This document shows positions 1,420 through 55,537 of a stretch of 64,000 bases of DNA, piece after piece. Under the pieces are notes generated by a model. The model searched no databases, had not been told where the DNA came from, and saw only the letters and a program-made list of their open reading frames with translations. A program made the position numbers and the translations under genes. This stretch comes from Sphingomonas sp. ATCC 31555 (GTDB lineage: Bacteria > Pseudomonadota > Alphaproteobacteria > Sphingomonadales > Sphingomonadaceae): NCBI RefSeq assembly GCF_000282895.1, contig NZ_ALBQ01000027.1:1-64000 (forward strand), in the 5' to 3' direction. Within the stretch, counting starts at the first letter, position 1. Every line of letters starts with the position of its first letter.

Positions 1420-3551
1420 CAAAAGCCGATGGTGATACCCATGCGGACCGTCCGCCCGGGTTGCGGCAGCAGGAAGAAGCCGCCGCTATCGATGATCCGG
1501 GCGTCGAACAGGTTATCGACGTTGATCTGCGCGCGGAGCCCCTTCTGGCCGGTGAAATACAGGGCACCGTCCACCCGGGTATAGCCGGGAAGCGTCAGGG
1601 CATTGTTCGGCAGGGTTGCCTGTCGGCTGGTGGAAGCGAAGACGCCCCCGCCGACGCCGACATTCCAGCTGCGCGTCAGGCGCGTGTCATACCGCCCCCA
1701 GAGGCTCCCGACATGGCGCGCAGCGAGCGGCAGGCGATCGCCAACCAGCGAGGCATCGTTATCGCGCGTCACCTTCGCATCGGTATAGCTATAGGCTGCC
1801 GTGAGCTGCAGCCCGGTCATGGGCGTGCCCTGCAATTCCAGCTCCACGCCTTGGCTGCGCTGTTCCCCAACCGCGATGCTGAAGTTCGGATCGTTCGGAT
1901 CAGTCGTCAGAATATTGCGGCGCTTGAGTTCGAACAGGGCAGCGGTCGCGAACAGCCTGCCTCCCAGCATCTCCAGCTTCGCGCCCACTTCCGACTGCAC
2001 GCCGCGCTCGGGGACGAATAGGCCGCCATCGGCGGACCGACCGAAGCTGTTCGGTACGAACGAGCGGCTCCAGCTGGCGAACAGCGACAGGCTTGGAACG
2101 GGTAGATAGACAAATCCCAGACGAGGCGACCAGGCGTTTTCCGTCTGCCGGTTGAAGACCTGCGTCACATCTTCGTAGCGCGAGCGTACCTCGTCGTAGC
2201 GTAGCCCCGCCAGCAGCCGCACCTGCGGGCCGAGCTCTACGAAATCCTGCAGGTACACCGCCGTGGACTGCGCGCCGTAAGACTGCGCCGGATAATTGCT
2301 GACGAACTGATCGGCGCGCGGCTCTGGCAGGCCATAGATCGGGTTGGCAATCTCCAGCGGCGCCAGGGGGGCGTCGAAAAACTCGTACGGCCCGAAATCA
2401 TAGTCGCTGTAGCTGACACCCACCAACAGTTTGTGCCGCGCCGGGCCGGTGGTCACGCCGGTGCGCAGCTCCGACAGCAGCGTCAGATCCTGCTGCTTGT
2501 CGCTCCCGCGCGAGGCGTTGCGGTTGAGGAAGCGACCGTCGGCGGAAATGGGTTCGCTGAAGTCCGGCCGCACCCCGAAATAGGATTGTCCCGCCTTGTT
2601 GTAGAAGGCGCCACCGCGCAGGCTCGTATCGGCATCGAGGTTCCATTCCAGTTCGGTCCGTCCGCCCCAGCTCCACTGATTGCCGCGCGAGAAGCGCTCG
2701 CCGGTCTTGAAGTCGCGGGGCACGCTCAGGAACACGGCATCGGGATAATAGCCGTCTCCGTCCCGCGCCGCAGTATCGCCGTCGAAGCCATAGCCCTCGA
2801 CCAGCATTTTCACATCCGGGGCGAGGCGCCACGTGCCGACGGCACTGCCGAAGCGATAGGATCGTTCGCGGAAGGTTTGAAGCTGTCCCTCCTGCCCGAT
2901 TGCCCCGGTGACGCGCAGGCCGCCACGCTGCTGGCTGTCCGCCAGATTGGCATCGATCGTCAGGCGGCGCAGGTCGATGTCGCCGGCTTGGCCCGAGATT
3001 TCCGCGAAGGTCTCGTCGACGGGTGTCTTGGTGGCATAGTTGACGAGCCCGCCTACGGCGAACGAGCTGCCATACAGGACCGACGCCGGCCCCTTCAGAA
3101 ACTCGACTCGGGCGATGTTGATCGGGTCGCGCGCCGTGGTGAAGCCGAACTCTCGATAGCCGTTGATGGTGCTTGCGGCCCCATCGGTACGGAATCCGCG
3201 AATGACGTAGGAAGTGGAGAAGGCATAGCCATAGCCGGTCTGACGCTGCACCCCGGCGACCGTGTCACCGGCAGCGTTGAGGTTGGTCAGCCCGCGATCT
3301 GTCAATAGCTTGTCCGTCACCGTTGAGACAGACACCGGCGTTTCCAGTATCGAAGCATCGATGCGCAGCGGCGCGGTGGCAACGTCGCTGACATAGGCTT
3401 GGCTGCGCTGGCCGACGACGACGATCGTTTCTTTCGCGTCACTGTCGCTAGTGGTGGTCTGTGCTGCAGCGGAATGCGCCATGCCCACACCGACTATCGC
3501 CCCAAACGCCAGAACCACCGGCGCATGCCTGTTTGTCACGTCGATCCCCAT
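1419..3551 (-). CDS. TonB-dependent siderophore receptor
   Basis: A 710-residue outer-membrane receptor. A signal peptide ends near AHSAAAQ (about residue 31) and is followed by a short linker (ETIVVVGQRS). The plug domain (about 55-170) includes SYVIRGFRTDG and ARVEFLKGPASVLYGSSFAVGGLVNY, the usual siderophore-receptor plug motif. The 22-strand barrel follows and the protein ends in the aromatic residue F, as barrel assembly requires. Length is normal for the family. It forms a two-gene unit with the PepSY gene. The substrate, probably a ferric siderophore, cannot be read from sequence. I did not find a confident Fur box upstream. Confidence 0.92.
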   Translation of the reverse strand: MGIDVTNRHAPVVLAFGAIVGVGMAHSAAAQTTTSDSDAKETIVVVGQRSQAYVSDVATAPLRIDASILETPVSVSTVTDKLLTDRGLTNLNAAGDTVAGVQRQTGYGYAFSTSYVIRGFRTDGAASTINGYREFGFTTARDPINIARVEFLKGPASVLYGSSFAVGGLVNYATKTPVDETFAEISGQAGDIDLRRLTIDANLADSQQRGGLRVTGAIGQEGQLQTFRERSYRFGSAVGTWRLAPDVKMLVEGYGFDGDTAARDGDGYYPDAVFLSVPRDFKTGERFSRGNQWSWGGRTELEWNLDADTSLRGGAFYNKAGQSYFGVRPDFSEPISADGRFLNRNASRGSDKQQDLTLLSELRTGVTTGPARHKLLVGVSYSDYDFGPYEFFDAPLAPLEIANPIYGLPEPRADQFVSNYPAQSYGAQSTAVYLQDFVELGPQVRLLAGLRYDEVRSRYEDVTQVFNRQTENAWSPRLGFVYLPVPSLSLFASWSRSFVPNSFGRSADGGLFVPERGVQSEVGAKLEMLGGRLFATAALFELKRRNILTTDPNDPNFSIAVGEQRSQGVELELQGTPMTGLQLTAAYSYTDAKVTRDNDASLVGDRLPLAARHVGSLWGRYDTRLTRSWNVGVGGGVFASTSRQATLPNNALTLPGYTRVDGALYFTGQKGLRAQINVDNLFDARIIDSGGFFLLPQPGRTVRMGITIGF

Positions 3552-3637
3552 TCTGATTATGGAGAACGCCTAGCAGCGCTGCGAACGCCAATCAATAGCA
3601 AGTCAAGCGTTGATCAAGCCGCTTTACCCTGTAGTTG

Positions 3638-3982
3638 CTACAGACCCAATGAAGCGCCCGTGATCCCAATTTGGATCGAACGGGGGGTGGTATTGAAGGC
3701 TATTTTTCGAGCGTGTGGGTCGATGAATCCCAGCATTTCCTGCTGCTTCTCGGAGCTACCGCCGACGCTGGCGCTTGCGCAGGCCGATGCCCGTAAAGTC
3801 CTGAGATCGTCGTGCAGGCAACGCGAACAGGCAGCCGCGTGCAGGACGAGCCGATCCGCGTGGATATCGTGCACCGGGAGGAGATCGAAGAGGAAACTCC
3901 TCATGCGGCCCGGCAACATAGCCATGCTGGTCATCGCCATCACGAAAGCCGCGCAGCGGCCTCGTGTACCGGCTCGCATTCT
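3638..3982 (-). CDS. Possible small Cys-containing exported protein
   Basis: An open frame of about 114 residues if the ATG at 3982 is used; the same frame stays open upstream to 4135. It has a basic start, a hydrophobic run (CAAFVMAMTSMAML), then a Cys pair (AAACSRCLHDDL) and SACASASVGG, ending in GITGASLGL. The layout recalls small metal- or copper-linked exported proteins (DUF2946-like) that sit near PepSY and TonB genes. It lies 86 bp upstream of the receptor on the same strand. I do not recognise it firmly, and the neighbouring DNA is decayed, so it may be a remnant or not a gene at all. Confidence 0.25.
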   Translation of the reverse strand, partial: RMRAGTRGRCAAFVMAMTSMAMLPGRMRSFLFDLLPVHDIHADRLVLHAAACSRCLHDDLRTLRASACASASVGGSSEKQQEMLGFIDPHARKIAFNTTPRSIQIGITGASLGL

Positions 3983-4218
3983 GTCGTTCTGGGATGCCGG
4001 CCATGCAGCTGCCGAAAGTCGGCTCCTGGTGAGGGCTGCCGTTCGATCTATCGCTCTGGAACGACCGCTTCGTCCCATTTCCTGCCATTCGAAATCTGTC
4101 CACTGAATGGAGGCTTCCACCCGAAAAGCAGTCATTCAATTCCTGCGCTGTTAGCGATCGCGAGCGAGAAAAACTGGCCATTTGCCGAAAAGTCCTTCTG
4201 GATCGTTCTAGCGAATAG

Positions 4219-4465
4219 TGAACCGCACCGGGTCTGCCGGAGGCATTGGGTTGTGAGTCACGCTGCCATATCGATGTTGCCGGCGGCAGCATAATATTGT
4301 TCTTCGGCTTCGGCAGGCGGGATGTTGCCGATAGGCTCGAGCAGCCGCCGGTGGTTGAACCAGTCCACCCATTCGAGCGTGGCGTACTCGACGGCTTCGA
4401 AGGACCGCATCGATATGGCAGCGTGACTCACAACCCAATGCCTCCGGCAGACCCGGTGCGGTTCA
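4219..4465. mobile_element. Miniature element derived from an IS3-family end, with perfect 58-bp inverted repeats
   Basis: Positions 4219-4276 and 4408-4465 are exact reverse complements over 58 bp, beginning TGAACCGCACCGGG. The 131-bp centre plus the left arm encodes, on the minus strand, the last ~44 codons of an IS3-family transposase (stop at 4258-4260; motif EWVDWFNHRRLLEPIGNIPP). The same end occurs in the fuller element at 42259-43578. Only the orfB-side end is present, duplicated in inverted orientation; the orfA-side end is missing. No target duplication is visible at the borders. Confidence 0.85.
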
Positions 4466-5360
4466 ATCATGGTGCCCACCGAATATTACGAAACTAAGGG
4501 AAGCAGCTATAAGAGTGGGCTCGGCAAGCAGCTGGATTCGCAGATCGTCGTGCAGTGGACGGGAACGGATGTCGTCCCGCAATCCATTTCGATCAATGAC
4601 GCCAAGGCGGCCCAAGAGGCGTTCGGGCGCAAAACGTTGTTGTGGGACAATTATCCGGTCAACGATTATGCGACCACCAGGGACGTCTAACACTCGCGCC
4701 CTATACCCGCCGCGAGCCGGGCCTATCTAGCTAGCGAATTAGCCGGCATCCTTTCCAATCCCATGAACCAGGAAGTGCCGACCCGCGTTGCGATAACTGG
4801 CGTGGCCGCGTTCGCGTGGAACGATCGGGGCTATGACGCCGACCTCGTCTGGCAATATGCCGCTAGCGAGGTCGCCGGCGGGGACGATCGCGCCCCCCAC
4901 TCGCTGCTGGTCTTTTTCGACACGCAGCATCTGGCCCCTACCTTCGGCAGCCACCCCTGGCAGGAACAAGCCCCTGCCCTGAAGGCAGCATTCGACGGCG
5001 TCCGCGCGGCGCTCGAGGGAGGAAACGAAGCTGCTCGTCAGGCTGCACTCAGCGCATTCGTCGATATCGCGGACGATTTCGCCCGCGCGCCGGCTAGCAT
5101 CCGCGCGGCGACCGTAGACCACCGTTTCGTTGAGCAGTCGCGACCATGGCTGGATGCCATGCAAGTCTGGGGACGCGTCTTGCAGCTTACCGCCGCCGGG
5201 CTAGACGCGGCTAACCGTCGCGAGCCCGCCGCCACGCGCTATTTCGCAGAGGCGCAGCAGCTTGCCACAGCAGCCGCCGCGATACCGACGATCAAGGGCG
5301 CGATCCGGTTCGATGGCTTGATCCAGATCGCAGACAGCGTGCTGGACCGCTTCGTGACGG
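4466..5360 (+). pseudogene. GH84 beta-N-acetylglucosaminidase remnant, main part
   Basis: This encodes the back part of a GH84 (hyaluronidase/O-GlcNAcase-like) enzyme: VPTEYY, then VVQWTGTDVVPQSI and TLLWDNYPVNDY near the end of the catalytic barrel, then the helical C-terminal domain (NPMNQEVPTRVAITGVAAFAWNDRGYDAD). The N-terminal half is missing and the sequence starts exactly at the border of the miniature element. Two compensating indels interrupt it. The frame shifts near 4680, so the original frame hits TAA at 4688-4690 while GRLTLAPYTRREPG continues one frame over. It returns at 4729-4735, where TAGC is repeated. The 3' end is cut at 5360 by an IS407-group insertion and resumes at 8265. 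Confidence 0.85.
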
Positions 5361-5734
5361 TGACGTGACCCCTGTCTTTCATCCAGCTGCAACCAGGACC
5401 GACCGTTATTGTCGCGCAGGAGCGCGGGCGAAGCAACGGGCGGGGTTAACCCCGCCCGTTGCTTTTCGAGTTCGGCGGCGAACGCCGCCGGTGTGGCGTA
5501 GCCGAGCGAGGAGTGCGGCCGCTCGGTGTTGTAATCATCGACCCAGCGCGCGAGGATCGAGCGCGCCTGGCGGACCGTGAAGAACAGCGTCTCGTTTAGC
5601 AGCTCGTCGCGCATGCGACCGTTGAAGCTCTCGACGAACCCGTTCTGCGTCGGCTTGCCCGGCGCGATATAGTGCCACTCGACACCGGCATCGCCCGACC
5701 ACGCCAGCACCGCGTTAGAGGTGAGCTCGGTTCC
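5361..5734 (-). pseudogene. IS407-group orfB transposase, C-terminal piece
   Basis: It encodes [12 protein letters not shown], then [20 protein letters not shown] with the catalytic Glu of the DDE triad, then LNETLF and [17 protein letters not shown]. The frame runs on without a stop through the element end into flanking DNA, so the original stop seems lost or lies in another frame. The piece contains a perfect 34-bp palindrome at 5431-5464. Confidence 0.85.
5431..5464. repeat. Perfect 34-bp palindrome without a loop
   Basis: The two 17-bp halves are exact reverse complements, meeting at GTT|AAC (centre GGGGTTAACCCC). It lies inside the C-terminal coding part of the IS407-group orfB. It could form a cruciform or act as a terminator for transcripts entering or leaving the element; on the plus strand it is followed by TTTTCG. 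Confidence 0.85.
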
Positions 5735-5887
5735 GTAGCACATTGGGAACCGATCCCGCGAAGAGCCGGATTGCCTTGTTGAAGGCAAGGGCGCGTAGCG
5801 CCCGCGGGCTTCATCAAGGCGGCCATGACCGGCCAGCAGATCTCTAAAGTGAAGTTGTCGACTCAACACTTTGGAGATTGACCGACC
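5735..5887 (+). ncRNA. Candidate bridge-RNA region of the IS110 element
   Basis: IS110-family elements encode a structured guide (bridge) RNA in a non-coding end. This left end, upstream of the transposase, can form tight hairpins: TTGCCTT/AAGGCAA with loop GTTG (5771-5788) and GGGCGC/GCGCCC with loop GTA (5789-5803). At 5746-5752 it contains GGAACCG, complementary to CGGTTCC of the left target flank (5728-5734). The right non-coding end (7181-7392) is the alternative location. The RNA is inferred, not shown. Confidence 0.35.
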
Positions 5888-7180
5888 ATGACCAAGCGCA
5901 GTTCTAACCCCACCGACGCCGTGCTGGTAGCCATCGATATGTCAAAGCATCGCCAAGAGGTGCTGATCGAACGTCCGGAAGGCGGTCGCCGGCGGCGGAT
6001 GACCGTGATGGCAACCAAGGCGGACTACGATCGCCTCGCAGCGGACCTTGGAGAGATCGGGCGGCGGATTGTCGTCGGCTTTGAAGCGACCGGTAACTAC
6101 CATCGCACCCTGGCGCACCGGCTGCTGGCCGCGGGCTTCGAGCTGCGGTTGATTTCGTCGGTCGCGCTGGCCCGGACCCGTGAGGCGTTGCACAATGGCT
6201 GGGATAAGAACGATTCCAAAGACGCGCAGGTGATCCTGCACATGCTGCGGATCGGCGCCACCCAGCGCTATGTCGACCCGCTCGCCGCCGGCATCAACGA
6301 TCTGCAGGAGATGTCGAAGACGCACGAGGCCATTTCCAAGGCCAAGACCCAGACCTGGCACCGGATCCTGACCCACTACCTGCCGTTGTACTTTCCGGAG
6401 ATCGAGCGCTTCGCTGGCAACAGCCGGTCCGATTGGTTCCTGGCCTTGCTCGAGCGCTTCCCCACGCCAGCGAGCATGACATCACTGGGCCAGGAGGCAT
6501 TCACGAACGAGGTCTGGCCATTAGTCGGTCGCAAGGTCTCCAAGGCCCGGCTGATCAACGATATTTACGCGACAGCCTGTGCTTCCGTGGCCCTGCCGGT
6601 CGACGAAGACAGCGTGGCGATAGCCATGTTCCGCATGGTCATCGCCCAGGCTCGAGGCCTGATCCGCCAACGCGACGAGATCGAGCGAACGGCCCATGCC
6701 TTGCTCAGCGACAACCGCGATTATCAGCTCCTGCGCCTGATTCCCGGGATCGGGCCGATCAACGCGCTGACCATCCTTGCCGAAGCCGGCGATCTTCGCC
6801 GCTTCGCCCACCACCGGCAGTTCCTCAAGTTCTGCGGACTTGATCTCGCGACCTGCCAGTCCGGCACATTCCGCGGTAAGACCAAGCTGTCGAAGTATGG
6901 CAACGCCCGGCTACGCCGCACCTTCTGGATGGCGACTCAGGTTGCCATTCGCCAGCGCGACAACAGCTTCCGCGACAAGCTGGGTCGGTACGTGGCCGGA
7001 CACGGCAACGACCCGGATCGCCGCCGCAAGGCCATGACCGCACTCACCGCCAAGATGGCGCGCGTCGCGCACGCCGTCATCAAAACGGGAACCGAGTACC
7101 GTCCGTTCGTCGAACGGGCGGACACCAGATGGAAGGACCCCTCTCTGCTGTGCCGTGAGGGCGCTACGGCGACCCTGTAG
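5888..7180 (+). CDS. IS110-family transposase (DEDD plus C-terminal Ser domain)
   Basis: A 430-residue recombinase that looks full length. The N-terminal RuvC-like domain has the DEDD acids: D17 (VAIDMSK), E66 (GFEATGNY), D109 and D112 (KNDSKDAQ). The C-terminal Tnp_IS116/IS110/IS902 domain has the helix-hairpin-helix [19 protein letters not shown] and the catalytic-Ser region [17 protein letters not shown]. All key motifs are present, so it may still be active. The ATG at 5888 follows GGAGATTGACCGACC. It is read opposite to the host IS407-group element. Confidence 0.95.
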
Positions 7181-7392
7181 ATAATGTTCGGGCCTTCCAT
7201 CTGGCATCCGCATCTCATTTTAAGGACGGTGAGGACCACGACCGGCTCGGACGCTGGATCCTGTGTTTGCTATGGCCGAGAGCGCTTTCCTTGACGATGG
7301 AAGCCATCTGGATCAGAACCGCATAGCGCTGATCGCCATCGGCGCAACGAGACCTGCTGGCCGTTTTCCGCCGCTGCTTCCCGACCTAGGAC

Positions 7393-7941
7393 GTTGTCGC
7401 TGACAATCATCCTGGGCGCGCCGCGCTCGGCGATTAGAGCGGCCAGTTCGCGCACCACCCGCTTGCCCGAGATCGACGTGTCGAGCACCGCCCGTAAGCA
7501 CTCCCGCGTCACGTCGTCGACGATGTTGAGGATGCGGAACCGGCGACCCGTGGCCATCTGATCATGGACGAAGTCCAGGCTCCAGCGCTGGTTGGGGAGC
7601 GCCAGCACGGGCGCAGGTGCCCGCGCGCCGACGGCGCGCTTGCGGCCCTTCCTGCAACGCACCGTCAAACCCTCTTCGCGGTAAAGCCGCTGGGTCTTCT
7701 TGCGGTTGATCGTGATGCCGTCCCGGCGCAGCAGGATGTGCAGCCGCCGATAGCCGGACCGTCGGCGTTGCTGCGCAAGCTCGCGCAGACACGACCGCAG
7801 GTCGCCATCATCCTCCCGGCACGAGCGATACCGCATGCTCGTGCGATCCGCACCGACGACAGTGCACGCCCGCCGCTCGCTCATCCCCAGCGCCGTCTGG
7901 AGATACGCGACCGCTTCCCGCTTCGCGGCAGGCGTCACCAT
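7393..7941 (-). pseudogene. IS407-group orfB transposase, N-terminal piece
   Basis: It starts MVTPAAKREAVAYLQ and carries the HTH_21 region (RRSGYRRLHILLRRDGI) and the first catalytic Asp of the DDE integrase core (QRWSLDFVHDQ), then runs to GAPRMIVSDN. The second catalytic Asp is the D of SDN, the last part before the IS110 insertion. The gene resumes at 5734 with [12 protein letters not shown], and joining 7393 to 5734 restores the reading frame exactly. Confidence 0.88.
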
Positions 7942-42056: not shown

Positions 42057-42297
42057 CCGTAGCTGGAAATCGGCGGACTTTCGCGGATTGTTCTAGGACC
42101 CGTGGCGTTCGCATCCGCAGCTGGTAGAGCGCTGGCGAATGCCTGATTCGCACCCCAAACTCAATTTTTCCACCTTCGTTCGGCGCACTCGCCGGCCATC
42201 ATCGTTGGGCGCATCGCTCCCGGCAGCTGGCGACCAAAGCCGGTCGTTCATATCCGCCTGAACCGCGCCGGGATTGCCGGAGGCCATTGGATGTGAG

Positions 42298-43206
42298 TCA
42301 CGCCGCCATATCGATCTGCTCAGCGGCAGCATAGTAGTTCGCTTCGGGTTCGGCAGGCGGGATGTTGCCAATGGGCTCGAGCAGTGGGCCATGGTTGAAC
42401 CAGTCGACTCATTCGAGGGTGGCGTATTCGACGGCTTCGAAGCTGCGCCATGGCCCGCGTCGATCGATGACCTCAGCCTTATACAGGCCGTTGATCGTCT
42501 CGGCCAAGGCATTGTCATAGCTGTCTCCGACGCTGCCGACCGAGGGCTCGATGCCGGCTTCTGCGAGGCGTTCGGTGTATTGGATGGAAACGTACTGGCT
42601 GCCGCGGTCCGAGTGGTGGACAAGGCCAGCATCTCGCGCGGGACGACGATCGTGCAGCGCCTGCTCGAGCGCGTCGAGGACGAAGCCGGCATGGGCGCTC
42701 CGGCTGACACGCCAGCCGACGATCCGACGCGCATAGGTGTCGATGACGAACGCCACGTAGACGAACCCCGCCCAGGTCGCCACGTAGGTAAAGTCCGACA
42801 CCCATAGCATGTTCGGCGCCGGAGCACGGAACTGGCGCTTCACCCGATCGAGCGGGCATGGTGCCGTCTTGTCGCTGACGGTGGTGCGCACCGGCTTGCC
42901 GCGGATCACGCCTGCCAGACGCATCGCACGCATCAGCCGGGCAACGGCGCATCGGGCGACGTCGAATCCCTCGCGGCGCAGCTGCCGCCAAATCTTGCGG
43001 ACGCCATAGACGCGGAAATTCTCCTCGAACACGCGGCGCACCTCCGGTCGGAGCACGTCGTCCCGCCGCGCGCGAGCCGACCGCTTGGTCGGCTCTATCC
43101 TTCTGGCAACATGGGCATGGTAGGTGGAGGGGGCGATCGGCAGTACCCGGCAGATCGGCTCGACCCCGTACACCACGCGGTGCGCGTCGATGAACGACAC
43201 CATCAC
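42298..43206 (-). pseudogene. IS3-family orfB transposase with premature stop
   Basis: The reading frame should give 302 residues. It has the HTH_21 region (NFRVYGVRKIWRQLRREGFDV) and the DDE core: D in VSDFTYVATW, D in VHHSDRGSQY and E in DNALAETING. At 42409-42411 a Trp codon is TGA (ATLE-stop-VDWFNHGPLLEPIG), removing the last 38 residues. The catalytic triad is intact, but the conserved tail is lost. Confidence 0.88.
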
Positions 43207-43528
43207 TTCGCTCGGCGGTCGAGCTCCGCCATCGCAAAATAGGCGGACGCCTTACGAAGGATCTCGTTCGCCTGGCGCAGCTCGCGATTCTCGCGCTCCA
43301 AGGCTTTCATCCGCTCCGCGACGTCACTCGGCACACCACCGCGCATACCGCTGTCCACCTCGGCTTTCTTCACCCATTCGTTGAGCGTCTGCCCGGAACA
43401 GCCGATCTTCGCCGCGATCGATACTACCGGCGCCACCGCGACGGGTGATCCTTCTCGTGTTCCAGCACCATCCGAACCGCGCGGGCGCGCACCTCAGGCG
43501 AGAACCTGTTCGTCGTTTTGCTCGTCAT
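43203..43528 (-). pseudogene. IS3-family orfA with frameshift
   Basis: It starts [20 protein letters not shown] and reads into DHPSRW, then a one-base loss near 43436 puts the ribosome on a nearby TAG. The rest ([20 protein letters not shown], then a coiled-coil [18 protein letters not shown]) is open in the shifted frame. The intact family reads through [13 protein letters not shown]. Confidence 0.85.
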
Positions 43529-43578
43529 AAACCCTTCCTCTCAGGAGTTGGGGCCTCCGACAAACCCGGCGCGGTTCA

Positions 43579-49543: not shown

Positions 49544-50422
49544 CTATCCCCTTGCCTTGATTGCGTCGCGCAGGTTTGGATTGGCGGCCAGTGCGGCTTT
49601 CACAGTTGCAAGATCGGCGCCCATCGCGATCAGCACGGCGGCCTTGATGTCGTGATCGGCGCGGTCGAGCGCTTCGCCCGCGAGATCGAGGTCGACGCCG
49701 GCAAGATCGGCAACCATCTGGCGGCCGCGCGCCAGCAGCTTCGCGTTCGACATGCGCATATTCACCATGCGGCCGCGATAGACCAAGCCGCGGCGCAGCA
49801 TGATCGCGGTGGACAGAAGGTTCAGGATGGCCTTCTGCGCGGTCCCTGCTTTCATCCGTGTCGAGCCGGCGACGATCTCGGCGCCTGTATCGGCGAACAG
49901 CGGATGTTCGACGGCATCCAGCAGCGGCGTGTCCGGATTGTTGGCAATGCCGATCGTCAGCGCGCCGGCCGCTCGCGCCATCCGCAGCGCGGCGACGGTG
50001 TAGGGGGTGCGTCCACTCGCGGCGAGACCGAACACGACGTCCTCCGCCGTCAGCCGCGCGTCGCGGATCGCCTGTGCGCCGGCCTCTGCATCATCTTCGG
50101 CGCCCTCCACGGCCTCGGTGAGCGCGACAAGCCCGCCGGCCATGATGAAATGCAGCCTCGCCTGGGGCCAGTTGAAGGTGGGATACAGCTCCACCCCGTC
50201 CTGCACCGCTACCCGCCCGGAGGTGCCCGCACCGACATAGACCAGCCGGCCGCGCTGCCCCAGCCGCTGCGCCGCCGCTTCTGCTGCCGCCGCGATCGGC
50301 CCTGTCAGCGCCCGCAGGCTGGCGATCGCGGCCATCTGCCCCTCGACCATCGCCGCCACCGCCAGCGGTGTCGGCCATTGATCGATATCTTCATAGCTGG
50401 GGTCGATCGCTTCGGTGCCCAT
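49544..50422 (-). CDS. murQ: N-acetylmuramic acid 6-phosphate etherase
   Basis: A 292-residue SIS-domain enzyme that cleaves the lactyl ether of MurNAc-6-phosphate to GlcNAc-6-phosphate in cell-wall recycling. Visible motifs are GRLVYVGAGTSGRVAVQDGVELYPTF, AVEGAEDDAEAGAQAI, DVVFGLAASGRTPYTVAAL, GIANNPDTPLL, EIVAGSTRMKAGTAQKAILNLLSTA and GRMVNMRMSNAKL. Length is normal. It follows the symporter on the same strand by 16 bp, so the two are probably one unit. Confidence 0.95.
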   Translation of the reverse strand: MGTEAIDPSYEDIDQWPTPLAVAAMVEGQMAAIASLRALTGPIAAAAEAAAQRLGQRGRLVYVGAGTSGRVAVQDGVELYPTFNWPQARLHFIMAGGLVALTEAVEGAEDDAEAGAQAIRDARLTAEDVVFGLAASGRTPYTVAALRMARAAGALTIGIANNPDTPLLDAVEHPLFADTGAEIVAGSTRMKAGTAQKAILNLLSTAIMLRRGLVYRGRMVNMRMSNAKLLARGRQMVADLAGVDLDLAGEALDRADHDIKAAVLIAMGADLATVKAALAANPNLRDAIKARG

Positions 50423-50438
50423 GGCGGTGCGTCCTAAC

Positions 50439-51998
50439 TTACTGCGTGTTTGCGCTCGGCGAGCGCGGCGCGATGCACACCAGGAAGGCGATCAGCGTAC
50501 CGATGCAGAGCTGGTAGGGGAAGGCCAGGCCGCGCAACGCACCCGGCAGCCCGATCGCGCGCGCCACCGCCGGCTGGAGGAGGCAGACGGTGGCGAACCC
50601 CGCGAGCAGCGCGGCGATCACCGATCCGGTGGTGCCTCGGGTAGTGAACACGGCGGCGAAATAGACGCCCAGCAGCCCGGCATAGGCGAACACCATCACC
50701 TGCAGCGCGAACTCCAGCAGCCCCATGTTCGATCGGTGCTGCCAGAAATAGGAAGCCACGGCCATCGCCAACATCGCCAGTCCGATCAGCCCCATACCCG
50801 CCCTGCCCGCGCCGACGTAATGATGTTCCGATGCGCCGCCGCGCCGCTGGCGCCAGGGCCGGTAGAAATCCTGGATCAACACCGAGGACATGGCGTTGAG
50901 CGCCGAATTGGTCGTTGCCACCGCCGCCGCCATGATGCCGACGGTGACCAGGCCGCGCAGCCCTGCCGGCAGCTGGGTCAAGATATAGTGCATGAAGATG
51001 CTGATCTTCTCGCCGCCGAACTGCTGCCCGGCCTGGGCCGTCGCGCCGCCCATCAGATCGGGCCGATCGTAGAAGACGTAGAGCAGCAGCCCGATGGTGA
51101 TGAACAGCGCCACCACCGGCACAGTGGCGAAGACCGACAGATACAGTCCGCGCGCGCCAGTGCGCGCGTCGCGGCAGGCGAGCAGCCGCTGCGTCATATC
51201 CTGGTCCATCCCGGCCGAAGCGGTGTGGAGCAAGGTAACTCCGGTGACGATGGCCAGCAGCGAGAACGGCTTGCTCAGATCAGTCGAGAAATCGAACAGG
51301 CGCAGCTTGTTCACACCTTCCGGGGTCTGCGCCAGCCCCTGCAGGATCTCCGCATTGGTGGCGGGGATGGAGAGCCGCAGGAACACCAGCACCGCGATCG
51401 CCGATCCCAGATAGATGACGAACTGGATCAGATCGTTCCACAACACCGAGCGAAGTCCGCCGACAAAGGTGAACAGGAAGCTGGCGGCCACCACCACCGC
51501 GGCGGCGATCAGGATGCTGGTAGCGCTGACCGTCATCGTCGCGACCATGGCGAGCGCAATCGCGGCAAGGTAGATGCGCGCGCCGCCGGCAAACACGCGC
51601 CCTACGAGGAACATGCCGCCGGCCCAACGGGTCGCCCGCATGCTGAAGCGTAGCGTGAGCAGTTCGTAGGCAGTCGTCACCCGCGCGGCATAGAAGCGCG
51701 GGATCAGCACCCGGGCGACGAAGATCGCGCCGAGCAACACGCCCAGGTTCGAGGCGAGGTAGCTATAGTCCCCGCGATAGCCATAGTCCGGCGCACCGAG
51801 AAAAGTGGCTGCGGATTGCGTCGCGGAGAGCACCGATACCGCCGCCAGCCAGGCAGGCACGGTGCCGCCGGCGAGAAAATACTCGTGCGCGTTCTCGGTA
51901 TGGCGCGGCATGAACGCCCAACCGCCGATCAGCAGGACCGCAAGATAAGCCGCAATCACGATCCAGTCGGCCAGGGTGAAGGAGAGAGCCATCGTCAT
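50439..51998 (-). CDS. Sodium:solute symporter (SSS family), probable amino-sugar importer
   Basis: A 519-residue inner-membrane transporter with about 13 helices. It has AWLAAVSVLSATQSAATFLGAPDYGY, TTAYELLTLRF, FTFVGGLRSVLWNDLIQFVIYLG and ASAGMDQDMTQRLLACRD, all typical of the SSS family. I placed the start at ATG 51998; upstream sequence is in the divergent promoter gap (51999-52185). With murQ downstream, import of MurNAc, anhydro-MurNAc or GlcNAc-type sugars is likely but inferred. Confidence 0.9.
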   Translation of the reverse strand: MTMALSFTLADWIVIAAYLAVLLIGGWAFMPRHTENAHEYFLAGGTVPAWLAAVSVLSATQSAATFLGAPDYGYRGDYSYLASNLGVLLGAIFVARVLIPRFYAARVTTAYELLTLRFSMRATRWAGGMFLVGRVFAGGARIYLAAIALAMVATMTVSATSILIAAAVVVAASFLFTFVGGLRSVLWNDLIQFVIYLGSAIAVLVFLRLSIPATNAEILQGLAQTPEGVNKLRLFDFSTDLSKPFSLLAIVTGVTLLHTASAGMDQDMTQRLLACRDARTGARGLYLSVFATVPVVALFITIGLLLYVFYDRPDLMGGATAQAGQQFGGEKISIFMHYILTQLPAGLRGLVTVGIMAAAVATTNSALNAMSSVLIQDFYRPWRQRRGGASEHHYVGAGRAGMGLIGLAMLAMAVASYFWQHRSNMGLLEFALQVMVFAYAGLLGVYFAAVFTTRGTTGSVIAALLAGFATVCLLQPAVARAIGLPGALRGLAFPYQLCIGTLIAFLVCIAPRSPSANTQ

Positions 51999-52185
51999 CG
52001 CAATCCATGCTGGCGAGCAAGGCCGGCCCGACCGCCTGTGCGGGTGAACCGGTAGCGCGCCGTCCACGGGAAGACGCTCCGTCGCGGATCCGACATTCCG
52101 CTTCCCCCCTCGCCAAGCAGGTCGCACATCCGGCCGACGGCTGTAAAGCAGCGCCCATGGCGATCCGTTATGGCGACCCGCCATC

Positions 52186-53586
52186 GTGGAATGGGCCGCT
52201 CCCAGGTGCCATGCTATGGCTGGGAGGATGGCGGGCACGACGATCCCGGACGCGCGGAAGCGCCGTTTTCACCGCGCCCTGCGGCGGGGGTGCTTGACGG
52301 CGTGTACGGCGATCCTCGCCGCGTCGGCCGCAGGGGCGGCACCTGCGCCGCCCTCGGCCTGCCCGGTCCTGCGCGAGGCTCCGCGCGCGCAACACGATCC
52401 CCGCTTCACCGCCCTTGACGAGACGGTGCGCAGCGGCGTGGGTTCGCTCTATGCCGGCGCCGTGCTTCTCGTCGCGCGGGATGGCCAGGTGGTGCATCGC
52501 GCCGCGTTCGGCGATGCTCAGCGCCTGGCTTCCAAACCCGGCGGCGAACTTCAGGCGCTCGCCACGCCGCGTGCGATGACCGTCGATACCCTGTTCGACA
52601 TGGCCTCCATCACCAAGGTCGAAGCGACTACCGCCGCGATCCTTCACCTCGTCGGTACCGGGCGCCTGTCGCTCGACGCGCGCTTGGGTACGTTGCTGCC
52701 CGCCTTCGATGGCACGGACAAGGCCACCATCACCGTGCGGCAACTGCTCACCCACCGCGCCGGGCTGTGGGAGTGGCAGCCAACCTGGCTACACCGCGAT
52801 GAATCGGGAAGCGTGCTGCCGTATCTGGCGGCGCTGCCGCTGCGGTACCCGATCGGCGCGCGCTTCGCCTATTCGGATCTCGGCTTCATGCTGCTGGGCG
52901 CGATCGTCGTCCAGGTCGGCGGCATGCCGCTCGAACGTTACGTCGCGCATGCCCTCTATCGCCCCATGGGCATGCGCCAGACCGGCTTTCTGCCGAGGCC
53001 CGAGCAGCGCAGGCGCGCCGCCGCCACCTCGGCGGGCGACGCGTATCAACGGCGCATGGCGGAAACCGGCAAACCCTATCCCGCCGCGCCGTACCCCCCG
53101 GCCCAGCCCTTCTCCGGCTATCGTACCAACATGCTGGTCGGCGAGGCGAATGACGCCAATGCGGCGCTCGGCTGGGGCGGAGTGGCGGGCCATGCGGGGC
53201 TGTTCTCCACCGCGACCGATCTCGCCCGCTATGCGCAACTGCTGATGAATGGCGGCTGCCATGGCCGCTGGCGGCTTGCTCCCGCCAAGACGATCGCCGC
53301 GTTCCTGCAGACGCCGTTCGACCTCGATCAGGCACTGGGCTTCCACAAGACCGAACTCGCCGGCATCGCCGCGCCGTTTTACGGCCATTCCGGCTTCACA
53401 GGCACCTGGTTCGCCTTCTCGCCGTCGCTGGGGCTCAGCGTGGTCCTGCTAACCAATCGCGTGCACCGGCCCGAAGGCGAACCCTATCCCGCACTGGGCA
53501 AGCTCCAGGAAGCGGTGCTGCGCGGTGCAGTGGCGGCTGTGGCACGCAATGATCCAGGCGATAGGAGGGAGCACGCATGGCGTTGA
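52186..53586 (+). CDS. Beta-lactamase-fold serine hydrolase (YbbE-like), exported
   Basis: A protein of up to 466 residues. A signal-like hydrophobic segment lies near residues 34-52 (RGCLTACTAILAASAAGAA). The class C beta-lactamase/DD-peptidase fold has SxxK in MASITKVEATT, YxN-like FAYSDLGFML and HSGFTG as the third motif. Members of this group accompany murQ and muropeptide genes in other bacteria. The start could be 52186, 52216 or 52228; none has a convincing ribosome site. It is divergent from the symporter/murQ pair and overlaps the next gene by 10 bp. Confidence 0.85.
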   Translation: MEWAAPRCHAMAGRMAGTTIPDARKRRFHRALRRGCLTACTAILAASAAGAAPAPPSACPVLREAPRAQHDPRFTALDETVRSGVGSLYAGAVLLVARDGQVVHRAAFGDAQRLASKPGGELQALATPRAMTVDTLFDMASITKVEATTAAILHLVGTGRLSLDARLGTLLPAFDGTDKATITVRQLLTHRAGLWEWQPTWLHRDESGSVLPYLAALPLRYPIGARFAYSDLGFMLLGAIVVQVGGMPLERYVAHALYRPMGMRQTGFLPRPEQRRRAAATSAGDAYQRRMAETGKPYPAAPYPPAQPFSGYRTNMLVGEANDANAALGWGGVAGHAGLFSTATDLARYAQLLMNGGCHGRWRLAPAKTIAAFLQTPFDLDQALGFHKTELAGIAAPFYGHSGFTGTWFAFSPSLGLSVVLLTNRVHRPEGEPYPALGKLQEAVLRGAVAAVARNDPGDRREHAWR

Positions 53587-54641
53587 ATCTGGGCCTGATC
53601 GAAGGCTTTTTCGGCAAGCCCTGGAGCTGGGCCGATCGAACGACCGTGCTCCGCACGCTGGCGGGGGCTGGCTATCGGTTCTACCATTATGGCCCCAAGG
53701 CCGATCCGTTCCTGCGCCGCCGCTGGCGCGAGCCGCATCCGCCCGAACAGTTCGCCGCCATCGCTGCCTTCGCCGCCGAGTGCCGCGCGCTCGGCGTCCG
53801 CTTCGGCGTGGCGCTGACTCCCGTCGGCAGCACGCATCCGTTCGGCGAGGACTCGCGCGCGGCGCTGCGCTACAAGCTCGGCCAGCTCGACGCGCTGGGG
53901 ATCCAGGATCTGGCGATCCTGTTCGACGATCTGCCGGCAGAACTGCCCGATCTGGCGCGCGGCCAAGCCGAACTCGTCGATTTCTGCGCCAACAACAGCC
54001 GCGCGAGCCGCATTTTCTTCTGCCCCAGCTTCTATTCGGACGATCCCATCTTGGAGCGCGCCTGGGGTCGGCGGCCACCGGCCTATCTTTCCGAACTCGG
54101 CCGCTATCTTGATCGCCAGGTCCGCGTCTATTGGACCGGAGAGGAAGTGGTCTCGCGCGAAATCGGGGTCGCCCATCTCAAGCGCGTGCAGGACGAACTC
54201 GGCCGCAAGGTCTGCCTGTGGGACAATTATCCGGTGAACGACGGCGTGCGCATGTCGCAATTCCTGCACCTGCGCGCCTTTACCGGGCGGCCCGCCGCGA
54301 TACGCCACCATGTCAGCGGCCATGCGATCAACCCCGCGTCGCAGCCGCTGCTTTCCTGCATCCCTGCGCTCACGCTGGCCGCCAGCTATCGCCAGGGTAG
54401 CCGCTATGCCTATGGCGAGGCGTTCCTGGATGCGGCCACTTCCGTGCTGGGCAGCGAGTTCGCCACGGTGCTGCGCCGCGACATCCTGCCGCTGCAGGAT
54501 ACCGGGCTGGACAATCTCGGCCCGCGCCATGCCGAGCTGCGGACGCGCTACGGCGCCATCGATCATCCCGCGGCGCGGGAGATCACCGACTGGCTCGACG
54601 GGCGCTTCCGCACGACGCTGGAAGAAGTGCAGACCCAGTAG
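53577..54641 (+). CDS. GH84-like beta-N-acetylglucosaminidase domain enzyme
   Basis: A 354-residue protein equal to the catalytic barrel of GH84. It begins LGLIEGFFGKPWSW, has YHYGPKADPF, the catalytic Asp pair in LAILFDDLP, VYWTGEEVVS and CLWDNYPVND. No signal peptide is visible, so it should act in the cytoplasm on imported GlcNAc-containing fragments. The missing N- and C-terminal accessory domains make it shorter than secreted GH84 enzymes. GGAGG precedes ATG 53577. It shares WDNYPVND with the broken GH84 gene at 4466. Confidence 0.88.
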   Translation: MALNLGLIEGFFGKPWSWADRTTVLRTLAGAGYRFYHYGPKADPFLRRRWREPHPPEQFAAIAAFAAECRALGVRFGVALTPVGSTHPFGEDSRAALRYKLGQLDALGIQDLAILFDDLPAELPDLARGQAELVDFCANNSRASRIFFCPSFYSDDPILERAWGRRPPAYLSELGRYLDRQVRVYWTGEEVVSREIGVAHLKRVQDELGRKVCLWDNYPVNDGVRMSQFLHLRAFTGRPAAIRHHVSGHAINPASQPLLSCIPALTLAASYRQGSRYAYGEAFLDAATSVLGSEFATVLRRDILPLQDTGLDNLGPRHAELRTRYGAIDHPAAREITDWLDGRFRTTLEEVQTQ

Positions 54642-54652
54642 GGGAGGATCGG

Positions 54653-55537
54653 ATGACGCAATTCTTCCTCGGCGTGGATGCGGGCGGGAGCAACTGCCGC
54701 TGCCGCCTGGTGGACGCTGCCGGCCGAGTGCTCGCGACGGCGCAGGCCGGGCCGGCCAATGCCGGGCTCGGGCTGGAGTCGCTCTATGCCACGCTGCGCG
54801 ACGTGACCGCGCAGGCGGTGCACGCGGCGGGCCTCGACGACACGCAGGTCGCCGGCATCCGCGCAGCGATGGGCATTGCCGGCATCTCGCGGCCCGGCGT
54901 GCTCGCCGCGCTGGAGGGTTTCGGCTTTCCCTTCGCGGAGACCCTCTACGATACCGATGCCGGCATCGCCAATCTGGGCGCCCATGGCGGGGGAGACGGC
55001 GCGATCCTGATCATCGGCACCGGCAGCGTCGCCCAGGTGCGGGTGAACGGCGAGAATTTCCGCATCGGCGGCTATGGCTTCCCCATTTCGGACGAAGGCA
55101 GCGGCGCGGCGCTGGGCCTAAGCGCGATGCGCCACGCGCTGCGCGCGCTCGACGGCCGCACCCGTGCGACGCCGCTCAGCACCGCCGTTACCGAGCGCTT
55201 CGGCCATGACACCGCCCGCGCGATCGCCTGGATGGATCAGGCGACACCGCGCGATTATGGCAGCTTCGCGCCACTTGTAATGGCCTATGCCGAAGCGGAC
55301 GACGCTATCGCCCGATCGATCGTGGAGGACGCGGTGGGCCATATCGAGCGGTTTATCGAAACGATCTTCGAACGCGGCGCGACCCGCTGCGCGCTGCTCG
55401 GCGGCCTCGCGCCGAAAGTGCGGCCCTGGCTGCGGGCGCGCACCGTTGCCCGGCTTAGCGACCCGCTCGGCGATGCGCTGAGCGGCGCCCTCTATCTCGC
55501 GGGTCTGCCCGCCCCGCTTCAGGAGAAGCTGCAATGA
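54653..55537 (+). CDS. BadF/BadG/BcrA/BcrD-type N-acetylglucosamine kinase
   Basis: A 294-residue actin-fold kinase. It starts FFLGVDAGGSNCRCRLVDAAGR (phosphate 1 loop), has AAMGIAGI, YDTDAGIANLGAHGG, AILIIGTGSVAQVRVNG (phosphate 2) and GGYGFPISDEGSGAALGLSAM, the glucosamine/GlcNAc kinase signature. It would phosphorylate GlcNAc released by the preceding GH84-like enzyme. GGGGAGG precedes the ATG by 5 bp. It ends overlapping a short Tat-signal stub. Confidence 0.92.
   Translation: MTQFFLGVDAGGSNCRCRLVDAAGRVLATAQAGPANAGLGLESLYATLRDVTAQAVHAAGLDDTQVAGIRAAMGIAGISRPGVLAALEGFGFPFAETLYDTDAGIANLGAHGGGDGAILIIGTGSVAQVRVNGENFRIGGYGFPISDEGSGAALGLSAMRHALRALDGRTRATPLSTAVTERFGHDTARAIAWMDQATPRDYGSFAPLVMAYAEADDAIARSIVEDAVGHIERFIETIFERGATRCALLGGLAPKVRPWLRARTVARLSDPLGDALSGALYLAGLPAPLQEKLQ

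Follow-up and report, generated by a model that had tools for sequence, protein, structure and literature searches.

A head-to-head fusion of two IS3-family right ends beside a truncated GH84-like gene in Sphingomonas sp. ATCC 31555

When two insertion sequence ends face each other as a perfect inverted repeat, is the unit that they enclose a mobile MITE or the residue of a rearrangement? The question arises at positions 4219-4465 of a 64,000-nucleotide stretch of Sphingomonas sp. ATCC 31555 (contig NZ_ALBQ01000027.1, positions 1 to 64,000 of the forward strand; hereafter the window). An initial annotation read the 247-bp unit found there as MITE-like, formed by inverted duplication of one IS3 end and movable in trans by an intact relative of the transposase. 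The arms themselves were placed and measured correctly. They occupy 4219..4276 and 4408..4465 on the plus strand, are 58 nt each and 100% complementary, and are separated by 131 nt. Exact inverted repeats within 2.5 kb were also sought in 20 mononucleotide shuffles of the window, where the longest measured only 15-19 nt; a chance origin of the 58-nt arms is therefore excluded. The real window has just one other exact inverted repeat of at least 20 nt within 2.5 kb, an overlapping, G+C-rich one of 26 nt at 5431-5464.

The unit is built from two pieces of the same kind. Positions 4219..4408 on the minus strand are the last 190 bp of an IS3-family element on its right, orfB side, with the terminus at 4219. 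The right arm is a second right end, with its terminus at 4465 and the fusion point at 4408. The spacer between the arms (4277..4407, minus strand) is the tail of orfB, present once, and the match to the IS3 OrfB tail (residues 246-301) runs from 4261 to 4428. Unit positions 1-190 and 190-247 match the right end of an IS3-family copy on contig C43 of the same genome on opposite strands, with 1 base common at the join. Two right ends are therefore fused head to head, and the unit consists of 190 bp of one right end plus 58 bp of a second, reversed, with 1 bp shared. The unit carries IS3-type terminal sequence and OrfB sequence, as an IS3-family remnant does. A complete IS3 element has a left end, a right end, orfA, and orfB; the unit has two right ends and only the tail of orfB within its 247 bp.

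The genome is available as a draft of 62 contigs and 4,046,117 bases. Within it, the nearest relative of the unit is the right end at C43:15821-16010, which is 99% identical over unit positions 1-190. Over window positions 4218-4408 the two agree at 189/191 positions, where position 4218 belongs to the flank and lies outside the unit, and the second arm (unit 190-247) is identical to the C43 right end at 57/58 positions (98%). The initial annotation had derived both arms from the orfB-side end of a related full-length IS3-family copy of 1320 bp in the window (42259..43578, minus strand). It was right that the arms are orfB-side IS3 ends, inverted and with exact termini, but the 42259 copy reaches 84% over unit 1-184 and 49/57 in the second arm, and descent from it is ruled out by the 99% for C43.

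The lack of divergence between the arms had been taken as a sign that the duplication is recent or kept by gene conversion. The arms are identical, but this shows only a common origin in one subtype, and 58 bp is too short for dating the event. Gene conversion between the arms is not needed as an explanation. At the one arm position that differs in C43, both arms hold the base found in 18/18 other right ends compared. C43 alone deviates there, and the shared base is therefore not evidence of conversion.

The C43 element spans C43:13227-16010, with 2784 bp between its termini, and its orfB is split by an IS30-family element; the IS30-family transposase gene, a 482-aa ORF, lies within it at 2747-4195 of locus L007 (C43:11500-16199). 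A copy of 1321 bp in a relative (genome G023, locus L008) has an OrfA frame with HTH_Tnp_1 and a 301-aa OrfB frame with HTH_21 and rve, and this OrfB matches NF033516 ("IS3 family transposase") with a score of 301 bits, where the cut-off is 160. Used as a query against the Sphingomonas sp. ATCC 31555 genome, it found the 42259 copy, whose orfB is broken by a single in-frame TGA, the C43 copy, split in two, and the OrfB tail in the unit, together with one distant protein (32%) on C13. This search found no intact orfB of this subgroup in the assembly, and the intact IS3 relative that the initial annotation called for is not supplied by either related copy. The absence is not decisive on mobility, because some Haloquadratum MITEs appear to have moved with no functional matching transposase found (PMC3119063).

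Both outer edges of the unit are exact IS termini. A degenerate pattern for the terminus has five exact matches in the genome, two at the unit, one at the 42259 copy, and two at the C43 copy. Target duplications are 3 bp long in this family, and the unit has TAG on its left and ATC on its right, with no duplication of 2-9 bp at its edges. This absence is weak evidence, because a 3-bp duplication is also absent in 8/13 distinct full-length family copies and present in 5/13. The 13 are those whose retrieved locus includes both ends, and two come from the same genome and eleven from relatives; loci from relatives with one recognisable end (L009, L014, L018, L021, L022, L028, and L029) were left out of the count.

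The decayed 3' remnant of a GH84-like beta-N-acetylglucosaminidase gene (4466..5355, plus strand; assigned by a match to NAGidase, PF07555) is cut exactly at the right edge of the unit, at about codon 340. Ten of 40 other genomes of the genus match the remnant over query positions 1-888 or 1-890 of 935 at 69-72% identity, and in all ten of these near-full-length matches the alignment begins at base 4466. In these congeners the open frame extends a further 348 to 500 codons upstream from the point matching 4466. In the window, it stays open for 74 codons, and the remnant carries an internal stop. A search of the draft assembly did not recover the first ~339 codons; its sole other match to the gene, at 53592-54386, spans residues 180-455 and belongs to a paralogue of 32% identity. 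Because the assembly is a draft, the missing 5' half could sit in a gap. The paralogue ORF (53577-54641) belongs to an apparent amino-sugar cluster at 49544-55537, whose neighbours we take by eye to be a MurQ-like etherase, a transporter, a beta-lactamase-like protein, and an N-acetylglucosamine kinase-like protein.

A cluster of IS remnants occupies 5201-7941. It contains an integrase-core (rve_3) transposase fragment (5201-5869), an IS110-family transposase gene (5888-7180), and an IS3-type ORF below the NCBIfam cut-off (7270-7941). The stretch from ~5358-5361 to 5400 recurs at 85-94% identity in 13/40 other genomes of the genus and is probably another IS end.

The left flank is not conserved among 294 other genomes of the genus. 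An empty left site was sought there with two candidates scored per genome, and 23 of the 294 gave short partial matches to 3979-4218, none reaching 4218. Against Pfam, four frames of the left flank gave one match only, which fell below its cut-off, and an ORF scan at the left-flank matches in six related loci found no frame longer than 200 aa.

In the initial annotation, a single-copy rearrangement without further occurrences would have refuted the MITE reading, and the searches returned just that. No second copy of the 247-bp unit was found in its own genome. Eleven of 60 relatives match the unit (12/61 with its own genome included), and none of the matches in the eleven extends beyond 190 bases of the 247. 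The junction was also placed in the middle of a 117-base query, which, with two candidates scored per genome, matched 92 of 295 genomes of the genus, the unit's own included. Among the matches listed, only its own genome covers all 117 bases, and over all 92 the best E-value is 7.2e-56 there against 5.3e-23 for the best of the other matching genomes. Of 72,556 plasmid records, 2261 match and none has a place covering 80% of the query. The junction pattern had no exact match in the GTDB 220 genome contigs, from which the unit's own record may be missing. Neither several dispersed copies nor insertion polymorphism, by which a MITE is recognised, was seen in these collections, in which this is the only strain of its species. 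A literature search on Sphingomonas MITEs and insertion sequences found no relevant report.

Taken with the truncated gene, the unit is probably a dead rearrangement scar, produced by a deletion between two oppositely oriented IS copies. We infer the presence of the two copies and the order of events as follows. Two oppositely oriented copies of one IS3-family element would have been present, each with its right end pointing away from the other copy. One would have occupied the left site, and the second would have lain within or next to the GH84-like gene. A deletion whose breakpoints overlapped by ~1 bp would then have taken most of both copies, the intervening DNA, and the 5' half of the GH84-like gene, so that 190 bp from one right end and 58 bp from the second were left fused to each other. 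Transposase-driven adjacent deletion at the IS ends combined with an internal deletion would be an equivalent route. There is precedent in three E. coli evolution populations, for which PMC11708052 reports that 14/83 IS events were accompanied by one; all 14 involved IS150 (IS3 family), 0 showed target duplication, and all are explicable as adjacent deletions. Counting against the deletion are the draft assembly and a left flank without a counterpart reaching 4218. The genomes compared, which include no close strain, also yielded no intermediate that retains both full copies in inverted orientation.

A mobile origin would order the events differently. A MITE with two right ends would have formed elsewhere and been inserted into the GH84-like gene by a transposase acting in trans, and a later deletion at its left edge would have taken the left target copy together with the 5' half of the gene. 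The exact termini at both ends suit this history. So do two-right-end versions of IS2 (IS3 family), which are reported to form minicircles with both ends as donors (PMC3299598), and the Haloquadratum MITEs that seemingly moved with no functional matching transposase found (PMC3119063). We consider it unlikely, with no second copy in its own genome, 60 relatives, 294 other genomes of the genus, plasmids, or GTDB contigs, no target duplication at the unit, and no intact orfB of the subgroup in the assembly. There is a slim chance that the unit is a natural two-right-end IS3-family mini-element that could move in trans, seen at its founding copy before any spread. Were the unit mobile, it would be a natural experiment on whether transposition in this IS3-family group needs no more than two right ends.

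A strand switch during replication could instead have duplicated 58 bp of the right end in inverted form within one IS copy, with a later adjacent deletion at the new terminus bringing in the GH84-like gene. Arms that are identical to each other and of one subtype are what this would leave. Such a switch would also be expected to carry on past 4465 into an inverted copy of the left flank, and the flanks are not complementary beyond the arms (62/200 positions). It therefore needs a second event ending exactly at an IS terminus, and with only 1 bp common at the switch point the whole sequence seems rather improbable. A plain fold-back duplication is ruled out, as the complementarity goes no further than the IS termini. 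Long inverted repeats are prone to error and the draft assembly is in 62 contigs, which would suit an assembly or chimaeric-read artefact. Both outer edges are exact IS termini, however, and the collapse of repeats would be expected to route via whole copies and not through a 1-bp junction inside orfB, making an artefact highly improbable.

The locus is an ordinary case of insertion sequences eroding genes and leaving confusing palindromes behind. It also carries a caution, that perfect inverted IS ends by themselves do not make a MITE. The initial annotation is partly supported. The origin of the arms in IS3 ends is right, and the MITE reading is not supported for a single-copy unit with no target duplication, a right edge that coincides with a gene's missing 5' half, and an assembly in which its subgroup has no intact orfB.

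Among known systems, the unit belongs with the IS3-family insertion sequences (NF033516) found in the genus and on plasmids of Sphingomonas, Sphingobium, and other alphaproteobacteria. Its ends and spacer correspond to the orfB-side end of such an element, but a left end and a whole transposase gene are both missing, and it has two right ends. Like the bacterial MITEs described in PMC10969869 and PMC3119063, it is short, has IS-related terminal inverted repeats, and is too short to encode a transposase. Unlike them, it is single-copy where searched, has no target duplication, and gives no sign of movement, although a target duplication of the parent IS length is described in PMC3119063 as present "often", not always. 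The PATEs of Haloquadratum, which according to PMC3119063 are without terminal inverted repeats and related to IS605-type elements, were rejected as a parallel. One-ended transposition of IS801 was set aside, since PMC3189936 compares it with IS91, which belongs to a different family and has a different mechanism. The IS150 deletion scars of E. coli (PMC11708052) resemble the unit in that an IS terminus is joined to a truncated flank with no target duplication. The unit differs from those scars in that most of the IS is gone as well and a second right end stands on the other side.
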